DNA of 64,000 nucleotides from a virus: IMG/VR virus record IMGVR_UViG_3300048587_001155, positions 1 through 64,000 of that record; one strand, given 5' to 3'. The position numbers and the translations under genes were made by a program. The notes under the pieces were generated by a model that saw only the letters and a program-made list of their open reading frames with translations, was not told the origin of the DNA and searched no databases. Below are positions 8,436-20,105 of the stretch, in pieces. The first letter of the stretch is position 1; each line of letters opens with the position of its first letter.

Positions 8436-8882
8436 ATGGCTAGGAAGAAAGCTACCAAACCAACTTCATTCGGTGAAGTCTTCGACCTCGGATTGTTCAA
8501 AGAGATCGGCTTCCCGCTGGCATTTCCCATTATGCCACTCGGTGCATTTGTATGGGCCTCGGCTCCATGGGTGTTTGATCAATCGAGTGTCTATGGCATT
8601 CAAAATCGGAAAATCACGCGCACAGGCTCTGATAACGTGACGCACGAAGTTGCGACACTTGCAAATCACCTTGAACATTACTGTCTCTGTATCGAGCCAG
8701 ATCCCTGTGTGCCTTGGAATACGGAAAGTCTCAGGGGTGACTTCGTTGGAAGCCCACGGGCTATTGAACTGTTTAGGGGCTATCAGCGTCAACTCGCTTG
8801 TCTTGATGAGACGATGACCGAGGTGAGACTCCGCGCCACAAAGTCAATTGGGGCGGAAGGCAAACTTATCCTTTTCACCTGA
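8436..8882 (+). CDS. Hypothetical protein, 148 aa
   Basis: ATG 8436 follows GAAGGAAGGA, a strong ribosome site. The product begins MARKKATKPTSFGEV and has a hydrophobic, proline-containing stretch at about residues 25-48 (FPLAFPIMPLGAFVWASAPW) that might touch a membrane, then a soluble half with several Cys (HYCLCIEPDPCVPW). I do not recognise the family. It sits between the tape-measure gene and a CsrA-like gene in the same direction. Confidence 0.55.
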   Translation: MARKKATKPTSFGEVFDLGLFKEIGFPLAFPIMPLGAFVWASAPWVFDQSSVYGIQNRKITRTGSDNVTHEVATLANHLEHYCLCIEPDPCVPWNTESLRGDFVGSPRAIELFRGYQRQLACLDETMTEVRLRATKSIGAEGKLILFT

Positions 8883-8928
8883 TCAGCATGACTTGATTCA
8901 TCACCACAACCATGAAGGAACACGCATC

Positions 8929-9132
8929 ATGTTGATCATCAAACGAAAGTCAGGCGAATCTCTTTTCCTCATGCTCGGGGACGGTCGCGAGATCGTGATA
9001 CATCTTCAGATTCCGCGCGATCGGTCGCTAGCAAAGCTGGCAATCGAGGCGCCTCCAAGCGTCAGAGTGTGGAGAGATGAAGCCCTCGATGATATCCGGG
9101 CACGTAGTCAAAGAGACGAAGCACTGGCCTAA
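8929..9132 (+). CDS. CsrA-like carbon storage/translation regulator homologue
   Basis: The N-terminus MLIIKRKSGESLFL and the later LAIEAPPSVRVWRDE match the beta1 and beta4/beta5 strands of CsrA/RsmA proteins (typically MLVLTRKxGES and LGIxAPxxVxVxRxE). CsrA dimers bind GGA-containing mRNA leaders and alter translation. At 67 residues the length fits the family. The start ATG follows GAAGGA. Inside an integrated element between tail and integrase genes, it could regulate element or host transcripts. The centre (HLQIPRDRSLAK) departs from the usual consensus, so RNA-binding specificity may differ. Confidence 0.75.
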   Translation: MLIIKRKSGESLFLMLGDGREIVIHLQIPRDRSLAKLAIEAPPSVRVWRDEALDDIRARSQRDEALA

Positions 9133-9185
9133 GTAGGCCTCACCAACCCCGGGCATGGATGCCGCCCAATTCAGGATCGGCAGCG

Positions 9186-10292
9186 ATGGCAAAACGCATC
9201 AAGGTTTGGGTTATGCACTACAAGGGTCTAAAGGACCTTCGTTTGCAATGGATTGACCCGGTCACAGGGAAGCGAAAAACCAAGTCCGCCAAGACTGCCG
9301 ATCCTGAGGTTGCCAAGCAAGCGGCATCCGACCTCGAATACGAACTCAACCACAACCTCTATGACGAGCCGTCAAAGATGCCGTGGGACGATTTCAGGCG
9401 GGTCTACATCGAGGAGAAGTTTGCCGGTGGATCCGAGAACACGATTTCAAAAGCGGAAACCGTGCTCTCGGATTTCGGCACGCGGTCTCATATCAAGACA
9501 ATCGGAGAGGTGACCGAGCGCACCTTTAGCAATTACGCCAGCAAACTTCGAACATTAGGCCGATCCGCGGCTACTATCCACGGGAACATGGCCTACCTCA
9601 AGGCGGCATTCCGCTGGGCCCACGATCAAGCCATCATCGGCCGTATGCCAAAAATCATCATGCCAAAACTTCCCAAGGGCGCGAATAAGGTAAAGGTCCG
9701 CAACGCTGCGAGAATCACCACAGAAGAATTTGAACGACTCCTTTTGAACTGCCCTTCGAACAGTTGGAAACTCCTCGTCGCTTTCGCGTGGCATTGCGGC
9801 ATGCGACGTTGTGAGGCGATGGCGGTTCACGGTGAGCAGATTGACCTTGCCGGGCGGGTGATATCAGTTCCCGACAACAAAGCGAGGAATCAAGCCGCCG
9901 TTGTCGTTATCACCCCCGAGCTATCGGAGATGCTGAAGTCGATGTTCCCGGACGGAATCCCTCATGGGCCGATCGTTCGCCAGATCCCCAAGAGCGATCG
10001 CGAGGTGTCGCGGGACTTCGTTGCCAACATATCGAGCAAGGCACTGGTGAAGGGCAACAGCCGCGCGAATAAGTTCACCGGGTTCGCCACACTTCACGAC
10101 CTCCGCCGGAGCTACGGGACGCGATGGGCCGCGAGGGTTCCAGCACAGATCCTGAAAGAGATGATGCGGCACGCGGACATCAAGACGACGATGGAATTCT
10201 ACGCCGATGCCGAGCAAGCCATGATGGACGCAGTGTGGTCGAAAGAGGCAATTTTGAACAACACAAAGGATCACACAAAGGCAGGCGAGTAA
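9186..10292 (+). CDS. int: Tyrosine-type site-specific integrase
   Basis: The N-terminal half carries a SAM-like core-binding domain (ENTISKAETVLSDFG ... TIHGNMAYLKAAFRWA). The C-terminal catalytic domain shows the first Arg (HCGMRRCEAM), the HxxR box (LHDLRRSYGTRW), a second His (MRHADIKTTM) and a Tyr (EFYAD). It would recombine attP with attB. ATG 9186 is chosen for AGGA upstream; ATG 9159 has no ribosome site. The tRNA-Ser 3' half lies 47 bases past the stop, the usual int-att arrangement. Confidence 0.93.
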   Translation: MAKRIKVWVMHYKGLKDLRLQWIDPVTGKRKTKSAKTADPEVAKQAASDLEYELNHNLYDEPSKMPWDDFRRVYIEEKFAGGSENTISKAETVLSDFGTRSHIKTIGEVTERTFSNYASKLRTLGRSAATIHGNMAYLKAAFRWAHDQAIIGRMPKIIMPKLPKGANKVKVRNAARITTEEFERLLLNCPSNSWKLLVAFAWHCGMRRCEAMAVHGEQIDLAGRVISVPDNKARNQAAVVVITPELSEMLKSMFPDGIPHGPIVRQIPKSDREVSRDFVANISSKALVKGNSRANKFTGFATLHDLRRSYGTRWAARVPAQILKEMMRHADIKTTMEFYADAEQAMMDAVWSKEAILNNTKDHTKAGE

Positions 10293-10338
10293 GTGGGTTG
10301 ATTTGGCTTTGTTAATCGACCTAAGTCTTTACCAGGAG

Positions 10339-10392
10339 CGGAGAGGGGGGGATTCGAACCCCCGGTCCCATTTCTGGAACACAGCATTTCCA
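10339..10392 (-). other. att core: 3' half of tRNA-Ser(GGA)
   Basis: Read on the minus strand, this segment begins with the anticodon loop CTGGAAA (anticodon GGA), continues through a Ser-type long variable arm (GTTCC pairing with GGGAC), a perfect T arm (GGGGG TTCGAAT CCCCC) and the 3' acceptor strand CCTCTCC with discriminator G. The matching 5' half (GGAGAGG, D arm) is not found beyond 10392. This is therefore an attachment core, not a functional tRNA gene. Its neighbour is the integrase. Confidence 0.8.
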
Positions 10393-11100
10393 GTGATAGA
10401 GACTCCGCGAATGGCAATCTACTCGGGAGCGACATGACGATTTCACTGAGAAAATGGGTCACGAATGACGCGCGAATTGTTCGCGACCCGTGAACGAGAT
10501 CCGTCAGTGTAACAGTTTACGTAACAGTTGACGGTTGCGCGGAAGAGAGCGGGCGACCTCGAGAGCGAGGCTAATAACCAGATTGATGAACTCAATAAGG
10601 AGCTGCACTTGCCGTTTGCAATTCAGTTGCCTATTCCTGCAAGTATCTTGTCTTAGGCGGCGGCACTGAGCCCGCGGCAAGAAATGAAATACCCGAGACG
10701 TCCGGCAAAGATCGTCTCGGGTAAGAACATCGCAGAGGCGGTATTGTAGCTCCCAGTCTCTTCGCGTCCACTTCGATGTTCACCTCATCTCTTGTTTGAA
10801 ACGGTTCCGAGTTTCGATTAGCCGGTTCGCAATGCCCGAAGCCGTAAAGGCATTCCACGACGCCGACACGTCTTTCGATCCCATAGCTACTTCAGGCCGG
10901 CATCTAACCCCAAAAGGGTTCGAGCTCGTCTTTCTCCGATGTAGCAACGGTCGTGACTCTCACCTGCAGACCGACCTAACGGTCTACCAGTTTTGTTGAT
11001 CGTCGACCTCGCCAATGATCGAAAGCCTTATTCCGCAGTTTGAATCTGAACTACCAGAATCAAAGGATTGCTACGCGCACTTCTAAGAAAGGATGTTGAA
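10393..11100. other. Intergenic region between the att core and the RNase H array
   Basis: About 700 bases without a gene I can support. It contains a perfect 11-bp hairpin (10690-10723) and TAACAGTT-type short repeats at 10508-10530 (GTAACAGTTTACGTAACAGTTGAC). An open frame at 10796-10999 lacks a ribosome site and is not called. This may be an arm of the neighbouring element's attachment region plus the promoter of the RNase H array. Confidence 0.5.
10690..10723. terminator. Perfect 11-bp inverted repeat (terminator-like hairpin)
   Basis: TACCCGAGACG at 10690-10700 pairs perfectly with CGTCTCGGGTA at 10713-10723, with a 12-base loop. No clear U tract follows on either strand, so a factor-dependent terminator, a protein-binding site or an RNA processing site is equally possible. 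Confidence 0.4.
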
Positions 11101-11811
11101 ATGGCTGGTTTCAATGAGAAGACTCCAGGGAGCTTTACCATCTGGACCGATGGTGCTTGTATCGACCTGCGATACGGTGGCTGGGCTTTCCTAATTCACG
11201 ATGATCGTGACGGAGAAACGATTTCATCGTCCGATGGAGTCGATCATACGACGAACAATCGAATGGAATTGGCGGCCGTGATCGAAGCGTTGTTGGCGAT
11301 ACCAGAGGGATCGAGGGCGAGAGTTATATCCGACAGTCGTTACGTGGTAAATGGCCTCAACCTTTGGATGAAGAAGTGGGAAAAGTGTGGCTGGAATCGA
11401 AAAGCAACAAAGAAAGACTCCGGCGAGCTTAAGAACAAAGACCTTTGGAAGCGAATTAGCGAGCTCTGCAAGAATCGAAGCGTTGTAGCGTGTTGGGTTA
11501 AAGGACATAACGGGGATCAAGGTAACGAATGGTGCGACCAGCAAGCAACTGAGCGGGCAAGCGAAGTTCTACAAGAAGATCAAAGGTCCCGACTCGGAAA
11601 GCTTCCTGAGGTCGATCCAATGAACGCGACGAGTGTGAGGAATCGCATTCGCTCGAAAGGAGTGACATACGACTTCAACGTCTGTGGCGTCAAAGTTCAG
11701 ACAATCTTTCCAAGGGAATTACACCCCTCCGAAGTTGCTGGATTCGAGCAACTTCTTCAGACCGGCATCAATGACTTGTTGCAGTCGCCATCGCAGGATG
11801 ATCGTTTGTAA
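11101..11811 (+). CDS. RNase HI-like protein with intact catalytic residues (array copy 1)
   Basis: Residues about 10-155 form an RNase HI domain: D in WTDGAC, E in NNRMELAAV, D in VISDSRYVVNG, H in WVKGHNG and D in EWCDQQA match the five E. coli RNase HI active-site positions (D10, E48, D70, H124, D134). It should cleave the RNA strand of RNA-DNA hybrids. A C-terminal extension of about 70 residues ends in an amphipathic helix (VAGFEQLLQTGINDLL). ATG 11101 is preferred over 11068 because AAAGGA precedes it. It is the first of four same-strand genes built on this fold. Confidence 0.88.
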   Translation: MAGFNEKTPGSFTIWTDGACIDLRYGGWAFLIHDDRDGETISSSDGVDHTTNNRMELAAVIEALLAIPEGSRARVISDSRYVVNGLNLWMKKWEKCGWNRKATKKDSGELKNKDLWKRISELCKNRSVVACWVKGHNGDQGNEWCDQQATERASEVLQEDQRSRLGKLPEVDPMNATSVRNRIRSKGVTYDFNVCGVKVQTIFPRELHPSEVAGFEQLLQTGINDLLQSPSQDDRL

Positions 11812-11841
11812 TACAGTCGCGATAACAAAGGAATGTTCGCA

Positions 11842-12570
11842 ATGTCTAGCGATAACGCCATTCATCCCGACTACTCGATTTGGATCTCAGGCTGTTCGCT
11901 TCCGTCTCGCGATGGCGGATGGGCTTTTTTAATTCACACTGAGGTAGACGGCCGCATGTCGTCAGATAGCGGCCATCAAGGCGACACATCACACCATCGA
12001 ATGGAAATGATCGCAGCAATCAATGCACTGAAGATCGTTCCTAGCAACAAACGAGTGACGCTTCATTCTCAAGATCAGTATCTCGTCGATGGAATCAATC
12101 TCTGGATCGATAAGTGGGCTCGAAATGGATGGCAACGAAATGGATCAGACGCAAAGTCATTGCTGAACATCGAGAAATGGAAGGAGATTCATGCCCTCTT
12201 AAACGACAGAGTAACGGCTATCCATGTTTCCGTTGATGATTACGACATACACATTGGGAGCGAGTGGTGTTTCGCGGAAGCTAAGCGTCAAGCTGTATGC
12301 CTTCATTCGAAGCACACCTACCGAAAGAAGAAGGCGCCTCATCCGCCTATTCGACCAACTCATGCCCAGAACAAAGAACACCGCCGGAACGGGAAGTTTC
12401 CCAAGAGGGGAAAGAAGGAACGATTCGGTCAACCGACACTACTGACCGGATTCTTTCCGGACGATCGTCGGATCAATCTCACATTCTCGAAGCGATTAGC
12501 ACCGATCGAAATCGATCGAATCAAGAGGGCCATTGAACAAGCATTGATCGATACCGGTCGTGGCGTTTGA
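11842..12570 (+). CDS. Degenerate RNase H-fold protein (array copy 2)
   Basis: The order of conserved blocks follows copy 1: YSIWISGCS, DGGWAFLIH, HHRMEMIAA, HSQDQYLVDGINLWIDKW and SEWCFAEA. The first catalytic Asp is Ser, the third is Gln and the last is Phe; only the Glu remains, so RNA cleavage is not expected. The basic linker (HTYRKKKAPHPP..., GKFPKRGKKERFG) and the C-terminal helix (IEIDRIKRAIEQALID) could bind nucleic acid or partners. ATG 11842 has AAAGGA at good spacing. It follows copy 1 by 30 bases and is probably co-transcribed. A scaffold or regulatory partner for copy 1 is inference. Confidence 0.8.
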   Translation: MSSDNAIHPDYSIWISGCSLPSRDGGWAFLIHTEVDGRMSSDSGHQGDTSHHRMEMIAAINALKIVPSNKRVTLHSQDQYLVDGINLWIDKWARNGWQRNGSDAKSLLNIEKWKEIHALLNDRVTAIHVSVDDYDIHIGSEWCFAEAKRQAVCLHSKHTYRKKKAPHPPIRPTHAQNKEHRRNGKFPKRGKKERFGQPTLLTGFFPDDRRINLTFSKRLAPIEIDRIKRAIEQALIDTGRGV

Positions 12571-12676
12571 TCGACTGACAGCTCCATGTCAATCACTCGG
12601 AGACAGGGCAATTTACCAATCTCCACATTAGATACCTAAGCCGCACGCGCTCGGCGTGCAACGAAAGGAGCACATC

Positions 12677-13402
12677 ATGATTCAGGAGCACAACAACTCA
12701 GTCATGATCTGGGTCGGTGCAGTTGCATTGAAACAAGGATTTGGAGGTTGGGCATTCTTGCTTCAGAGGAAGGAGACCGGTCTGATCGAGTCCGGATTCG
12801 GCCGGAGTGTTGACACGACGAAGTACCGCATGGCACTTGAAGCAGCGTGCCAGGCTGTCAGCCGATGTAAGCAAAACGACGTCATAACCATCGTGTCTGA
12901 TCTCACCTACCTTGTTAATGGAATCGAAGCCGGTCTTCGTCGAAAGACTATCGCAGGCGAAGAGGATAACGTCGATCTCTGGAAACGCCTCTTAATTGGA
13001 GCAAACTCTCGAGAAGTAAAAGCCCTTTGGACGCGAGATTATTCTGTTCGCGCTAATCGCTGGTGCAACATACAGGCAAAGCGGTCGGCGCAAAGTCTTC
13101 GGGACGGAAGGTCAGTGCCATCAAGTCTTCCACTTCCAGAGTCCAAGTGCATCGATCAAGACAAGATGGCAGCATTTGCATCCGAGCTGAAGCGAACCAA
13201 CTGCGTTCCGCAAGTTATGGAATGCTTGGAAATATCAGCTCTCTCGTTCGACGGTGATTTGATCTCAATCGAACTATCGCGTGATCCCTCTGGAACCGAG
13301 AAGTTCAAGCTTGAGAGAGCGGTCAAGAAGGCGATTCGATCAATGGCTGTCAAGCAAGAGAGGATTAACTCGCGTCCGGCAAAAAAGAATCGACCTCGCT
13401 GA
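12677..13402 (+). CDS. Degenerate RNase H-fold protein (array copy 3)
   Basis: Blocks again align with copy 1: VMIWVGAVA, FGGWAFLLQ, KYRMALEAA, IVSDLTYLVNGIEAG and NRWCNIQAKRSA. Here the first Asp is Gly, the Glu is Ala and the last Asp is Asn; only the middle Asp remains. The long loop after helix C that is present in copy 1 is shortened. The C-terminal part (LISIELSRDPSG, FKLERAVKKAIRSM) has the same strand-helix layout as copies 1 and 2. ATG 12677 follows AAAGGAG. The 106-base gap upstream contains no other gene. Confidence 0.8.
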   Translation: MIQEHNNSVMIWVGAVALKQGFGGWAFLLQRKETGLIESGFGRSVDTTKYRMALEAACQAVSRCKQNDVITIVSDLTYLVNGIEAGLRRKTIAGEEDNVDLWKRLLIGANSREVKALWTRDYSVRANRWCNIQAKRSAQSLRDGRSVPSSLPLPESKCIDQDKMAAFASELKRTNCVPQVMECLEISALSFDGDLISIELSRDPSGTEKFKLERAVKKAIRSMAVKQERINSRPAKKNRPR

Positions 13403-13463
13403 GAGACCCGTTCACACACAGGGAGATTGTTGAAAGTTTCGATAGATAACTGAGGATCTCGCA

Positions 13464-14402
13464 ATGGAAGAATCTGATTGGCTCGTCGAGGCGAAGGGAA
13501 GTTGCTCTAGCGTTTCCGGCGGACCGGGAGCATGGCGTGTTCGAGTACTCGAGAAGACTAATGGACGACACGAAGAGCAAAGCGGAAACAGTTCGAATAC
13601 ATCTCCGCTCGAGATGGAGCTGACTGCGGCATTGAACGGGCTTCGAATGATACCGAAACGAGGATCGGTGACGCTTATGGTTCGGAACCCGATCATCGTA
13701 AATGTTTTGCGAGGAAGCGAACTGCCATCGAAGCACAATGATTTGTGGAGATGCATTCAAGCGGAGTCATTGCCAAGAAGTGTCAACGCTGTAACAGTTC
13801 GCAATTTCGTCGAGATCGACCGCGCGATCGAGCAACGAAACAAGAAGGAGCAGAGAGAGAAAGCGAGGATGTCTTCGACGTCGGAACTCGAGACTCTGCC
13901 ACTCTTCGACCACGACATCACGATCTACACGAACGGCGCAAACTCCAATAAAGTTTGCGGGTGGGCATTTCTACTTCACAACAAGCGTACTGGTGAGATG
14001 GAGACCGGCGCCGGTTCGATTCGTCAAACAAATGTGAATCGGATGAAGCATCTGGCGATAGTAGAAGGACTCAAACGAGCTCCGCAGAATGGGCGGATCC
14101 GGGTTCTCACCGACATGAAATATCTCGCTGACGGAATTACTTACAAGATAGATGTGTGGCATAGCTGGGGATGGCGCAAGTCAGCGAACGGTTGTGTTGA
14201 ACGGCCGAACCCCGATCTTTGGGAAGACGTTTGGCAATCCAAGAGGGTGAGCGACGTTCGAGTTGACTGGGTGCGAAGTAACACCGGGATCGAAGGGCAA
14301 GATTGGTGCGCAACAGAAGCTACTCGACAGGTGGATATCGCTCTTAGAAAGCGAGCAGGAGAGCAGGCCGAACTACCTCGTTTGGATTCGACTCAGCCAT
14401 GA
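13464..14402 (+). CDS. Fusion of two degenerate RNase H-fold domains (array copies 4 and 5)
   Basis: Residues about 15-130 are a strongly reduced copy (GGPGAWRVRVLE, SPLEMELTAALNGL, VRNPIIVNVLRG) without the C-terminal WC motif. Residues about 150-300 are a second, fuller copy (ITIYTNGAN, CGWAFLLHN, VNRMKHLAIVEGL, VLTDMKYLADGI, QDWCATEATRQV). In the second, Asp-to-Asn, Glu-to-Lys and Asp-to-Ala changes remove the active site. The linker (EQRNKKEQREKARM) is charged and helical. The start follows GAGGATC. As the last gene of the array it is followed by 392 bases without a gene. Confidence 0.75.
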   Translation: MEESDWLVEAKGSCSSVSGGPGAWRVRVLEKTNGRHEEQSGNSSNTSPLEMELTAALNGLRMIPKRGSVTLMVRNPIIVNVLRGSELPSKHNDLWRCIQAESLPRSVNAVTVRNFVEIDRAIEQRNKKEQREKARMSSTSELETLPLFDHDITIYTNGANSNKVCGWAFLLHNKRTGEMETGAGSIRQTNVNRMKHLAIVEGLKRAPQNGRIRVLTDMKYLADGITYKIDVWHSWGWRKSANGCVERPNPDLWEDVWQSKRVSDVRVDWVRSNTGIEGQDWCATEATRQVDIALRKRAGEQAELPRLDSTQP

Positions 14403-14794: not shown

Positions 14795-16117
14795 ATGATG
14801 AAATCAGATGAACAGTTAAGCAGCGCTCAAGTTACGACTCCCTTGCGGGTGATCGAACTTTTTTGGCGTCTACTGAGACATCGTCGGCCTGCTATTGGGC
14901 ATGTCCTCGACATGGGGGCGGGCGATGGACGATTCGCGAAAGCCGGGGAATTCAGATCATACTTGGGAATAGAAATCGATCCGACAAGATCGAGGCATGC
15001 AAAGATCCCGAAGAACGCCAAAATTATAAGAGGCTGTGCGTTCAAGCATTCAGGCAGAGGTTATGATGCCTGCATTGGTAATCCTCCTTATGTCCGACAT
15101 CACGATATCGAGGGGAGTTGGAAACAGCGAACACTCCAAAGTCTTTCAAAATCGCTCGGAGTGAAGCTAGATTGTCGTTTCAATCTTTACCTCTACTTCA
15201 TGTGCCTCGGTCTCCTGCGCACTGCTCACGATGGGATATTGGCAGTCGTCGTTCCGCACGAATGGATTGGCCGTCCATCATCGCGTCCACTTCGCGAGTA
15301 CATTAGCAAACAATCGTGGGACGTAGATGTCTATCGGTTCACTCAGCCCATTTTCGAAGGAGTCCTGACGACTGCTTCGATCACATTCATTGATAAGTCA
15401 TCATCATCCGGCTCGTGGCGACACTATGATCTTTCGAATAACTTCGAAATGAATCCGAGGCCGATTCCTCGAAAATCTGTTCCTCAAATCCTCCCGTACG
15501 AACGCCGGGGAAAAATTTGGGCTATTCGCGGCCTGAGTCCCGGGTCACAGCGTTTCTTCGTTCTGACGGAGGGGGAACGAATTCACAACGGACTCAGGAA
15601 GTCGGACGTAGTTCCATGCGTGACGTCAATGTCTTCTATGCCGTCCGAAGTTGCCACATTATCGGTAAGTGCATTCAAAAAACACTTTGTGAACGCTGGC
15701 GAAAAATGTTGGTTGATAAAATCGCACTCAGAGAGCCCTAGCGATTCATTGGCCGCGTACCTTGGGACCGTTCCAGCTGGGATTCGATCAAACTTCACCT
15801 GCTCATCTCGCACCGTCTGGCATCAATTCCGTATGCCGAAACCTCCGGACATCCTGGTGAGCTCAGGATTCGTTTCGTTTGGACCTAAGGTAGTCGTGAA
15901 TGAAATTGGCGCGATTGGGATCGGAACTATTCATGGCGTGCACGGGGTCCCAAAGTCCAAACGGATCGGTTTGCGAAATTTCTTAGTGTCAACGAACTTT
16001 GAAAAACAGATTATTCCACATGCAAACACGTTGAAGAAAATCGAAGTTCGCCAGCTTAACGCAGCTCTCAATCGATATTCCACAGAGGTGAATAGAAATG
16101 CCGCGCGTCCTCTCTGA
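14795..16117 (+). CDS. N6-adenine DNA methyltransferase, M.TaqI-like
   Basis: AdoMet motif I is VLDMGAGDGRF (about residues 37-47), followed by an acidic IEIDP segment and the catalytic motif IV NPPYV (96-100), as in gamma-class N6-adenine methyltransferases such as M.TaqI. The upstream TTPLRVIELFW resembles motif X. The rest (residues 200-440) would be target recognition. No nuclease domain is visible, so this is not an Eco57I-type fused enzyme. The gene overlaps the ATPase gene by 20 bases, heading a four-gene operon. The start region lacks a clear ribosome site; ATG 14798 is an alternative. Confidence 0.85.
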   Translation: MMKSDEQLSSAQVTTPLRVIELFWRLLRHRRPAIGHVLDMGAGDGRFAKAGEFRSYLGIEIDPTRSRHAKIPKNAKIIRGCAFKHSGRGYDACIGNPPYVRHHDIEGSWKQRTLQSLSKSLGVKLDCRFNLYLYFMCLGLLRTAHDGILAVVVPHEWIGRPSSRPLREYISKQSWDVDVYRFTQPIFEGVLTTASITFIDKSSSSGSWRHYDLSNNFEMNPRPIPRKSVPQILPYERRGKIWAIRGLSPGSQRFFVLTEGERIHNGLRKSDVVPCVTSMSSMPSEVATLSVSAFKKHFVNAGEKCWLIKSHSESPSDSLAAYLGTVPAGIRSNFTCSSRTVWHQFRMPKPPDILVSSGFVSFGPKVVVNEIGAIGIGTIHGVHGVPKSKRIGLRNFLVSTNFEKQIIPHANTLKKIEVRQLNAALNRYSTEVNRNAARPL

Positions 16118-18320
16118 GCAAGATATTCCGTTTCAAACCGAAGGACGCTTGCTGCAAGAGCTAGGGCTGCGACTCGTCGCTAGTCCGCAGGTCGCACTTG
16201 TCGAACTCATTAAAAACGCTTACGACGCCGATTCGCCAATATGCGATGTTCGGTTAGAGGGCCAGAGAACGCTGATCGTTGAAGATCACGGAAGCGGTAT
16301 GACGCTTGACGATTTTCGAAACAGATGGATGCGAATCGCGACATCTGACAAGGCGACTCTTGCTACGTCGCCGAGGTTCAAACGTCCGCTCACTGGCGCA
16401 AAAGGTATTGGCAGATTCGCCGTGAGATTTCTGGGGAATCATCTCCATCTGACGTCAGTTGCATACGACAAGAGTCGAAAACTCCTCACTCAACTTGACG
16501 CCGATTTCAATTGGACCGCTCTCGATCGAGAAAGAGACATCTCTCACGCAGTTGTTCATTGCAAATTGATTGCAGCACCAGCCGGCGCACAAACGGGAAC
16601 CGTATTGCGAATTAGCTCTTTACGACAAGAAGTCGACTTTGCCCGCGACCAGTCCTTACGATCGGATGTCCTCCAAATCGTCACGCCTTTGCAGGGGTTG
16701 GATCGCGGTAAATTTGCGACGGAAAATGGAGTAGGAAGCGCCGATCCTGGATTCAAGGTAACACTTCCCGGTACCGATTCAGACGAGAATCTCGACCTCG
16801 CAGAACTCGTATTGAATAACTATTGGGCAAGATTGACTGTCGAACTTGTTGGAGCGCGTCTCAAGATAAAGGTGCACCTACACGAGTCTGGTGAAACGAG
16901 CGAACTAAATCTGCGTGTCGCAAGCGTCATCTCCAAAGGTTTCTTTGCCGATATCCGTTACTTCCCGCGTCGCAAGGGAGTTTTTAGCCAAAAGGGTATT
17001 GATGGACGGAAGGCATGGAACTGGGTTCGAACGAACTGCGGTATTAAAGTCGTTGACCACGGCTTTCATATTCATCCATATGGATTCAAAAAGGACGACT
17101 GGCTGCATCTTGATCATGATACGTCACACAATGAGCGGCAATGGAGCACACGAATTGCCCAAGAGCATTTTCCGATTAACCAGCTGATTCAGAAAGACCC
17201 GGCCATTAACCCTGCTCTGAATCTCGCATCAAATTTTCAGGTAGTTGGCGCCGTATTTATTGAGACAGCTCGTGACGCAGGAAATAAAGATGTAATCGAT
17301 TTATTACCTGCAATGGATCGCGAGGGCTTACTCGAAAATCAGGCTTTCCTTCAGTTAGTTGAATTCGTGAGGAGTGGGCTTGAATTTCTTGCGCATGTTG
17401 ACAAGCGTGCTCTCTTGAAGAAGCTAGAAATGGATGCGAAGCTTGCGGCCAAGTCGGCCCGGAAAGACATCCAGCAAGCAATCTCCCATATTCGTAATAG
17501 TCCGACACTGACATCTGCCGACAAATCGAGGATTGTCAAGCAATACGCATCGCTCGCTGCGCAAGTCGAGAAACAAGAGGAGTATTCTCAGCAAGCGCGC
17601 AGAGGCCTCGTTACCATGGGGCTGCTCGGCGTTGTTGCTGGATTTATGACGCATGAAAGTCGCGCAATACTTCATGATCTAGAATTAACCGTTTTGGCCA
17701 TACAACGACTGGCAAAGAAGGATCGATCACTCCAGAAGGACGCGGATCAGCTCGAGCATCGTCTAAACACATTTCGCGGGTATCTCGACTATTCTCGTTT
17801 ATTCATTCAAAGTGCACGGGTTCTACGCGATGAACCTCTAGCCGTTGCTAGCCAAATTCGCCGAATTATTGCGAACTTTGGCTCTGTTGCCAAAGATCGG
17901 GGCATCAAAGTGAGTATTGATGTGGATGAATCTGTAAAGACACCTCCGCTGCCGGTAACTGCTTACAGTGGCATCTTGCTGAATCTTTTTACCAATGCGG
18001 TGAAAGGAATTCTTGCAGCGGCCGGTAGCACTCCGAAGCCACTGATCAGCTTTCGATCGTGGAATGAACAGGATCGACATATCGTTGAAGTTGCTGACAA
18101 CGGTATTGGTATTCCACCGGAATTGAGACGAAGAGTGTTTGATCCTCTTTTCACCACCACTTCGGATGTCGGCAACCCGCTTGGATCCGGAATGGGCTTG
18201 GGCTTAACATTAGTCGAACAGGTTGTACGCGAATTTGAAGGAAGGATAACCCTTCTGGAAGTTCCGCCTCCGGGATTCAGCACGTGTTTTCGAGTCGTCT
18301 TTCCGAGGAAAGATAAATGA
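16098..18320 (+). CDS. Dual GHKL ATPase: MutL/Hsp90/MORC-like domain plus histidine-kinase-like domain
   Basis: The N-terminal 110 residues contain a GHKL nucleotide-binding site (ALVELIKNAYDAD at 33-45, VEDHGSGMT at 61-69, GAKGIGRFA at 100-108) of the Hsp90/MutL/MORC type. The C-terminus contains a second GHKL site of histidine-kinase type: N box (LLNLFTNAV, near 627), G1 (VADNGIGIP, near 665), F box (FDPLFTTT) and G2 (GSGMGLGLTLV). Before it lies an H-box-like GFMTHESRAI with His at about 519. No membrane segment is visible, so it is cytoplasmic. The downstream receiver-like protein is an obvious phosphorylation or docking partner, which is inference. Confidence 0.85.
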   Translation: MPRVLSEQDIPFQTEGRLLQELGLRLVASPQVALVELIKNAYDADSPICDVRLEGQRTLIVEDHGSGMTLDDFRNRWMRIATSDKATLATSPRFKRPLTGAKGIGRFAVRFLGNHLHLTSVAYDKSRKLLTQLDADFNWTALDRERDISHAVVHCKLIAAPAGAQTGTVLRISSLRQEVDFARDQSLRSDVLQIVTPLQGLDRGKFATENGVGSADPGFKVTLPGTDSDENLDLAELVLNNYWARLTVELVGARLKIKVHLHESGETSELNLRVASVISKGFFADIRYFPRRKGVFSQKGIDGRKAWNWVRTNCGIKVVDHGFHIHPYGFKKDDWLHLDHDTSHNERQWSTRIAQEHFPINQLIQKDPAINPALNLASNFQVVGAVFIETARDAGNKDVIDLLPAMDREGLLENQAFLQLVEFVRSGLEFLAHVDKRALLKKLEMDAKLAAKSARKDIQQAISHIRNSPTLTSADKSRIVKQYASLAAQVEKQEEYSQQARRGLVTMGLLGVVAGFMTHESRAILHDLELTVLAIQRLAKKDRSLQKDADQLEHRLNTFRGYLDYSRLFIQSARVLRDEPLAVASQIRRIIANFGSVAKDRGIKVSIDVDESVKTPPLPVTAYSGILLNLFTNAVKGILAAAGSTPKPLISFRSWNEQDRHIVEVADNGIGIPPELRRRVFDPLFTTTSDVGNPLGSGMGLGLTLVEQVVREFEGRITLLEVPPPGFSTCFRVVFPRKDK

Positions 18321-19399
18321 AAAGTCTGAATATACTTCTCTTCGATGACGTGGAAGAGAATCTGCGTGAGGTTCAAGATCTTATTTCAAAAGAGCTTGGC
18401 GTTAAAGGGAAGGTGGAAGCATATCCTCTTGTTCGGAGAGAAACCTCTAAGCTGGGCGACCCGGAGCCATTCGAAGACATCATCGAGCGCGAGCTCAGGA
18501 AGCGTGCGGAGCCGGTCAGCCTAATAGTCGCAGACCGAGATCTATCGCGAGCCACAGATTACCGTGGACTGTCAGAACCAACCGTTCGCCGCGCCGCAGA
18601 ACGACTTGCGATACCGGAATGTGGCTATGCACGCGGTGAATCCGGGGACGCTATCTCATATTTGGATATTGGCGAGAAGAGAGAGGAGTGTATTCGCCTT
18701 AGCCTCACTCCCCAAGATGTGTTCGCTCGGAAGGTGGTCGACATCGCCGAAGGATTCGAATGGATGAAGGAGCAGGTCCCAAATGTAATGCAAAAGATGA
18801 AAGGCAGACAACCATCTCCGGCAAAGATACTCGCCGAATTGTTGGGAGTGCCCGATCAAGTTGAGAAAATTTCCCTCTTTGCTGTGGGCGATAAAAATCG
18901 ATTGGGTGACATCCCCAGACTTGGAAAATCTTCTTCAGACGAGAGAGCACGGAGGCTCGCCTATCTCTTGGGTTATTGGCTGTGGGACTCTGTCTTATTT
19001 TTTCCTGGGCTTGTAGTAAATGAAATAGCCGCATCAAGTTACTTGAATATCAGCGTAGAAGAGTTCAGAAAAAAGGATGTAGCAAGTTTATTCTCCGCGG
19101 CCAAATACTTGGGTCCGTTCTCCTACGCGAGAGGGCCTCTCTGGTGGCGCGGTAGGCTTGATTCACTACTCGGTGATTTCGAAGACGGAAACTCTCTAGC
19201 GACGACGAACCTCGGTCGAGAAGTCGCACCATGCTTATGCTCCGTAGATCCTTCGATACAGGCGGGCTTCGTTTGCGTACTGTCAAACAAACCTGTTAGT
19301 AGCAAAAACTCAACAGGCAAATTGCTTTGGTTGCCCCGAGGCGCCGATTTGGCTCGGGTGAGTCGCACGATGATCGATGAGTTTGGTCCATGGCTGTAG
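18317..19399 (+). CDS. Receiver-like domain protein with a large unknown C-terminal domain
   Basis: The N-terminus (LNILLFDDVEENLREV) has the beta1 hydrophobic strand and paired Asp (residues 10-11) of response-regulator receivers. LIVADRDLSRAT puts a candidate phospho-acceptor Asp at 73 or 75. The usual Lys of the fold is not evident. About 240 further residues (from LTPQDVFARKVVDIAEGF) match nothing I know; they have two hydrophobic stretches (AYLLGYWLWDSVLFFPGLVV) but no clear DNA-binding motif. Start and the previous stop overlap as ATGA, so the gene is translationally coupled to the ATPase gene. Confidence 0.7.
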   Translation: MKSLNILLFDDVEENLREVQDLISKELGVKGKVEAYPLVRRETSKLGDPEPFEDIIERELRKRAEPVSLIVADRDLSRATDYRGLSEPTVRRAAERLAIPECGYARGESGDAISYLDIGEKREECIRLSLTPQDVFARKVVDIAEGFEWMKEQVPNVMQKMKGRQPSPAKILAELLGVPDQVEKISLFAVGDKNRLGDIPRLGKSSSDERARRLAYLLGYWLWDSVLFFPGLVVNEIAASSYLNISVEEFRKKDVASLFSAAKYLGPFSYARGPLWWRGRLDSLLGDFEDGNSLATTNLGREVAPCLCSVDPSIQAGFVCVLSNKPVSSKNSTGKLLWLPRGADLARVSRTMIDEFGPWL

Positions 19400-19409
19400 A
19401 GAACGAGAT

Positions 19410-20105
19410 ATGTCACAATTTCCAGGACAAGCCCGGTATGCGGATCTCATTGCTTCATTCACTCGACACCTTCAGACTCCCTGTGGAATGATCGACATCT
19501 TTCCTAGATCCGAAGCTGAATGGTTTAGGTCTACCCAAAAGACGGCTTCACTTTCGGAATGGAAGTTCGAAATCGTAATGCACCTTCCGCGATGGAAGGC
19601 CAGGAGAAAGGAAGTTTATATTATCCTTCATGCAACCGAGACCATACAGCGAAGGTCTGGCGGGGCTGCGATAGTGACGAAATCCACCGTGCGCCTTTCA
19701 TATTGCGATGTTGAAGAAGAGTGCGAGCTCCTCCATTCAATTCACTATGACTTTGACAAAATAGTAGAAAAGCATCCTCTGTTCCATGCACAGGTAACGA
19801 ATGAAGCTCCTTCATTACCCGATGTAGCTCAACAGGAACTCGAGATCATTCTTCCAAAGCCGCGTTCTCCGCTTTTTAAATTTGCACGAATTCCAACTTC
19901 CGACATGACTCTCCCTTCGGCACTTTTGTGCTTAGCGGCAGATCATTGCGGAGACCAGGAAGCGTTTGACGCATTCCGCGAAAAGGTTATGTCACTTCGC
20001 GAGAAAATGCATTACGCCGATGCGTCGATGATTACGAATCATGTAAGTGGATCAAAATTACCAATTCTTTGTAGCTCGGTTTGGTTCGGAAAGTCGCCTG
20101 AGTAG
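19410..20105 (+). CDS. Hypothetical protein, fourth gene of the methyltransferase operon
   Basis: ATG 19410 lies 10 bases after the receiver-like gene with GAGA upstream. The 231-residue product is soluble and mixed alpha/beta (WKFEIVMHLPRWKARRKEVYIILHATETI; SIHYDFDKIVEKHPLFHAQV). I recognise no family or catalytic motif. The end of the operon is marked by a terminator about 180 bases on. The constant direction and short spacing suggest that it acts with the methyltransferase and the ATPase. Confidence 0.65.
   Translation: MSQFPGQARYADLIASFTRHLQTPCGMIDIFPRSEAEWFRSTQKTASLSEWKFEIVMHLPRWKARRKEVYIILHATETIQRRSGGAAIVTKSTVRLSYCDVEEECELLHSIHYDFDKIVEKHPLFHAQVTNEAPSLPDVAQQELEIILPKPRSPLFKFARIPTSDMTLPSALLCLAADHCGDQEAFDAFREKVMSLREKMHYADASMITNHVSGSKLPILCSSVWFGKSPE

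Follow-up and report, generated by a model that had tools for sequence, protein, structure and literature searches.

Between positions 11101 and 14402 of the window, by which we mean the whole 64,000-base stretch analysed here (bases 1-64000 of a 76,533-bp IMG/VR record), five domains of the RNase HI type lie on four co-directional genes (Table 1). Pfam, NCBIfam and a search of the record itself all give this arrangement, and the five-domain, same-strand array proposed in a first-pass annotation is thereby confirmed far beyond chance; a chance resemblance of motifs is ruled out by the Pfam, NCBIfam and Foldseek matches. Gene 4 is a fusion of two RNase H domains (copies 4 and 5). Copy 1 scores 131.7 bits against NCBIfam NF001236, which is under the equivalog cut-off of 160, and copy 3 is placed in the family by sequence alone, at 31.2 bits against a PF00075 cut-off of 25.8. 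With gene 1 as a query within the record all four other domains were recovered, copy 4 only at an E-value of 0.115, and copy 4 is alone among the five copies in being missed by the Pfam RNase_H model. Shine-Dalgarno-like sites were found at all four gene starts (for gene 2, at 11842 or 11833). A sigma-70-like promoter was not found on the + strand, and a single operon for the array is therefore an assumption. Pfam found no reverse transcriptase domain in genes 1-4.

Table 1. Features of the array and of the adjoining element end, in window positions.
Feature	Position	Strand	Evidence
att core formed by the 3' end of a tRNA-Ser(GGA) gene; left element boundary	10338..10395	-	58 bp identical to MAG contigs
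Leader between att core and gene 1	10396..11100	.	93% identical to MAG
Gene 1, RNase HI (copy 1) with C-terminal extension; all five active-site residues	11101..11811	+	PF00075 5.6e-37
Gene 2, predicted dead RNase H (copy 2) with C-terminal extension; E48 the sole residue kept	11842..12570	+	PF00075 2e-14; AF2; Foldseek
Gene 3, predicted dead RNase H (copy 3) with C-terminal extension; D70 the sole residue kept; handle region lost	12677..13402	+	PF00075 2.9e-7
Gene 4, N-terminal half, predicted dead, diverged RNase H (copy 4)	13464..13889	+	NF001236 2.2e-6; AF2 strand/helix order
Gene 4, C-terminal half, predicted dead RNase H (copy 5); D70 the sole residue kept	13890..14402	+	PF00075 1.6e-15; AF2; Foldseek

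The element and its neighbourhood

The array begins about 700 bp from the 58-bp att core, which directly follows the first of two integrases in the record (9159-10292 and 74883-75950, the latter at L010:10883-11950; 58% identical to each other). The 76.5-kb record also carries two D5/DUF5906 primases. A second instance of the locus was found in a planctomycete-like MAG (G005, JAIEPU01), in which the core is present without change at L023:4898-4955 and at L027:3068-3011. On contig L023 the core, within an intact tRNA-Ser(GGA) gene, follows an integrase gene whose DNA is 94% identical to that of the record's second integrase, and on contig L027 the core is followed by the array end. These two orders place the array at the attL-side end of the element and the integrase at its right end, and so the record holds two prophage-like elements in tandem at one tRNA-Ser site, the right-hand core falling outside the record. 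On L027 the same core is also flanked by the end of another integrase-like frame. Judging from gene content (a DUF1501-like protein on L027), the host of the element is probably a planctomycete. The MAG gave no match to the terminase of the element in the window, and the middle parts of the element may differ there or be absent from the bin.

The leader gave only sub-threshold Rfam matches, two of the three on the tRNA fragment, and a conserved RNA was rejected on that ground. A short CsrA-like protein, recognized by eye, is encoded at 8848-9132 just before the first integrase, and a capsid-like protein at 248-2203 has about 350 residues ahead of its capsid domain and no relative that we could find in IMG/VR.

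Downstream of the array, a cassette at 14795-20105 encodes an Eco57I-type methyltransferase, a double-HATPase protein with a BbrUII/HgiDII-like N-terminal domain and a histidine kinase-like C-terminal domain, and two genes without a family match; it may be an undescribed defence or regulatory unit. The protein at 20842-22128 matches the PADLOC candidate PDC-S60 over residues 24-229 (8.5e-30). The array could itself belong to an undescribed defence unit together with this cassette, as its cargo position beside att, the matches of its neighbours to methyltransferase and HATPase/restriction-like models and the PDC-S60-like gene would suggest. We consider this very improbable, since PADLOC models gave no match for genes 1-4, a 392-bp gap separates gene 4 from the cassette, and the array-bearing MAG yielded no relative of the HATPase protein.

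Active-site residues, folds and substrate contacts

Active-site residues were compared at positions D10, E48, D70, H124 and D134 of E. coli RNase HI. Copy 1 has D/E/D/H/D at these positions in both the window and the MAG. The corresponding residues are S/E/Q/Y/F in copy 2, A/D/Y/N in copy 3 after a missing D10, K/E/R/F/R in copy 4, where the alignment of the tail is uncertain, and N/K/D/N/A in copy 5. Four of the five residues are thus lost in each of copies 2-5, and D10 is lost in all four; the first-pass annotation had been right that copy 1 keeps the full set, but its count of two or three losses in the other copies was too low. Copy 1 looks like a working RNase H, and catalysis by copies 2-5 is very unlikely on the basis of these residues.

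The predicted folds agree with this picture. AF2 models of copies 2 and 5 match E. coli RNase HI in Foldseek at about 1e-12, with a TM-score of about 0.8 by target length. Residues 11-73 of copy 4 give the NF001236 match of Table 1, and its AF2 model has the order strand-strand-strand-helix-strand-helix-helix-strand-helix, which is that of RNase H without the handle helix, at a pLDDT of about 60-78; the other rows of the alignment for gene 4 cover almost only its second half. Copy 4 had been said to have lost its C-terminal block. This holds for the WCxxxA motif, which is missing along with the handle helix, but not for the structure, as the fifth strand (107-114) and the long last helix (115-137) are present in the model. 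Both modelled genes, 2 and 4, are RNase H-like in AF2, and for these two the concern that the dead copies might not have this fold did not come true. Residues and folds together support the description of one active and four dead domains, the activity of copy 1 being predicted.

In established RNase H structures the RNA strand and its 2'-OH groups are read by N16, N44 and N45 (E. coli numbering), and W81, W85 and N100 of RNase HI face the DNA strand. Copies 2 and 3 have none of these three asparagines, and copy 5 lacks most of them. Copy 2 retains W81, W85 and N100, and copy 3 has no handle region. Hybrid recognition of the usual kind by copies 2-5 is doubtful in view of these residues, and the earlier suggestion of a hetero-oligomer or a hybrid-sensing set goes beyond the evidence, given that the 2'-OH-reading residues are mostly lost in the dead copies and that the layout is rare and unstable.

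The same residues bear on whether the dead copies could bind hybrids on their own, independently of copy 1, and so protect the element's R-loops or replication primers from host RNase HI. The fold is kept, the element has its own D5/DUF5906 primase and some DNA-side residues are kept in copy 2; furthermore, the use of inactive RNase H as an R-loop probe shows that such binding is possible (PMC12134985). This explanation nevertheless seems improbable to us, because the RNA-reading residues are mostly gone, the handle is missing from copy 3 and the active copy nearby would work against such protection.

Origin, selection and distribution

In a tree of RNase H sequences, copies 1, 2, 3 and 5 cluster with gene 1 of the MAG, with moderate support (89/70) and long branches, and apart from the rnhA of the MAG. 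This grouping fits local duplication, and we infer that all five copies arose in this way. Separate acquisition of each copy is not favoured by the tree, an argument that the long branches weaken, most strongly for copy 4. The C-terminal extensions of genes 1-3 have no significant likeness to one another (best shuffle p about 0.06) and were set aside as proof of whole-gene duplication. We also rejected a host housekeeping gene as the identity of gene 1, since the MAG carries its own rnhA on a contig other than that of the array and gene 1 stands apart from that rnhA in the tree.

The array copies are 44-49% identical pairwise in DNA, and the frames of genes 2-4 contain no stops. Under neutrality, 0.4 substitutions per site would be expected to produce about 7 stops in 236 codons, and open frames at the observed divergence are therefore not what neutral drift predicts. 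The copies could, however, have diverged to a large extent before they lost activity, and the time of that loss cannot be read from the open frames.

Comparison with the MAG gives a closer view of genes 1 and 2. The window and the MAG are 89% identical over 1,817 bp, starting exactly at the core and running through gene 1 into gene 2, so that a homologue of a dead copy does occur next to an active one, which the first-pass annotation had named as a point on which its interpretation might fail. Gene 1 is intact in the MAG, with a dN/dS of 0.145 against the window copy (Fisher p 1e-19), and a 255-nt fragment of gene 2 gives a dN/dS of 0.187 (Fisher p 1.6e-6). By these ratios, copies 1 and 2 have both been under purifying selection. 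From the leader into the start of gene 1 (10338-11280), identity to the MAG is about 93% or higher, and dS is 0.17 in the first 120 nt of the gene versus 0.58 overall; local recombination would fit this high identity as well as constraint would. The changes of D10 to S and of D70 to Q are present in both gene 2 copies, which indicates that the death of gene 2 preceded the split of the two lineages. In the MAG, gene 2 is a pseudogene with a 1-nt deletion, a stop just after it and then IS3-like sequence near the contig end, and searches of the MAG found no relatives of genes 3 and 4. Copy 2, although dead, was thus constrained for a period before one lineage lost it.

Wider searches returned no further array. 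In two overlapping samples, 392 genomes from the phylum and 398 from the class, the MAG gave the only array-type match among the matches listed (5e-94), and the other matches listed score as ordinary rnhA (best 3.5e-39); the counts rest on the matches listed, and weak dead copies on their own could have escaped. Gene 1 matched 1,163 of 50,697 phage records, each at a single place and none with an array. In IMG/VR, four contigs carry one distant RNase H each, and a motif-spacing scan returned 12 contigs, of which only one (L014) has an RNase H. Scans of IMG/VR with gene 2, gene 4, the integrase pair, the HATPase protein, the att-side DNA and the capsid protein found no relative, and an alignment of all five copies was too diverse to serve as a scan query. 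The gene order thus recurs in one MAG, with gene 1 and a broken gene 2, and in no other genome sampled. In all samples searched the array is restricted to one lineage, and its layout is rare and unstable.

The main rival to a functional reading of the dead copies is duplication followed by decay, in which they would be functionless relics in a variable end of the element and copy 1 an ordinary extra RNase HI. The broken gene 2 and the missing genes 3 and 4 of the MAG, the restriction to one lineage and the strong erosion of copy 4 are all consistent with decay. It is difficult to reconcile with a gene 2 dN/dS of 0.19 despite active-site losses in both lineages, with four long open frames at 44-49% nucleotide identity and with Shine-Dalgarno-like sequences at the gene starts, and we regard it as rather unlikely.

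Possible function and comparison with known systems

The reading that we prefer, and to which we give an even chance, is that the array is a lineage-specific family of RNase H pseudoenzymes beside an active copy, in which the dead copies bind either nucleic acid or copy 1 and so steer or limit the latter. An RNase HI gene of the element would have been duplicated, probably several times; copy 1 would have stayed a working RNase H, and copies 2-5 would have lost their metal-binding residues while keeping the fold, with at least copy 2 kept by selection as a pseudoenzyme. The dead copies may bind nucleic acid through the DNA-facing surface, which in copy 2 is better kept than the RNA-reading one, or may bind copy 1, and would thereby guide or restrain the active nuclease where it acts on R-loops or primers, whether of the element or of the host. 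Co-expression, any complex and the substrate of the array are presumed in this proposal. A stronger form of the pseudoenzyme reading, in which one catalytic subunit and several dead, substrate-setting RNase H subunits make up a mobile-element RNase H machine built from separate genes, is in our view unlikely; if true, it would parallel, in bacteria, the dual RNase H found in retroviral reverse transcriptases.

Where inactive paralogues are retained next to a working enzyme, they often point to regulation or to the formation of a complex, and the array might perhaps mean R-loop control by a mobile element. RNase H is a simple, well-studied enzyme, of which active/dead pairs are already known from retroelements. 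A non-exhaustive literature search found no such array. A set of five such domains on an element of bacteria would give an independent case, open to experiment, in which a family of nucleases has evolved into binding proteins.

Compared with cellular RNase HI (PF00075 / NF001236), all copies share the fold and the motif order, and copy 1 has the full active site and the handle region. The array differs in the C-terminal extensions of genes 1-3, in having four of five domains dead and in the presence of several domains per locus. Retroviral and Ty3-type reverse transcriptases have a dual RNase H, in which an active domain is accompanied by a degenerate connection or tether domain that has been reused (PMC5603734). 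They resemble the array in having a second copy of the RNase H domain, with one copy active and the other dead, and Foldseek aligned gene 4 to foamy virus reverse transcriptase across both halves, at an rmsd of 17. The array, in contrast, has no reverse transcriptase domain, is made of separate genes, has four dead copies, with both halves of gene 4 dead, and belongs to a bacterial element; the resemblance of gene 4 to these enzymes is one of layout only and not of membership. The RNase H-like domain of Prp8 is another fold without catalysis that is reused in an RNA machine (PMC5603734); unlike the array, it is a single domain of a spliceosomal protein with no active sister beside it. In trypanosomatid deoxyhypusine synthase a dead paralogue activates its sister enzyme by heteromer formation (PMC3663545). 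That enzyme is unrelated to the array, and a comparable interaction between copy 1 and the dead copies is hypothetical.
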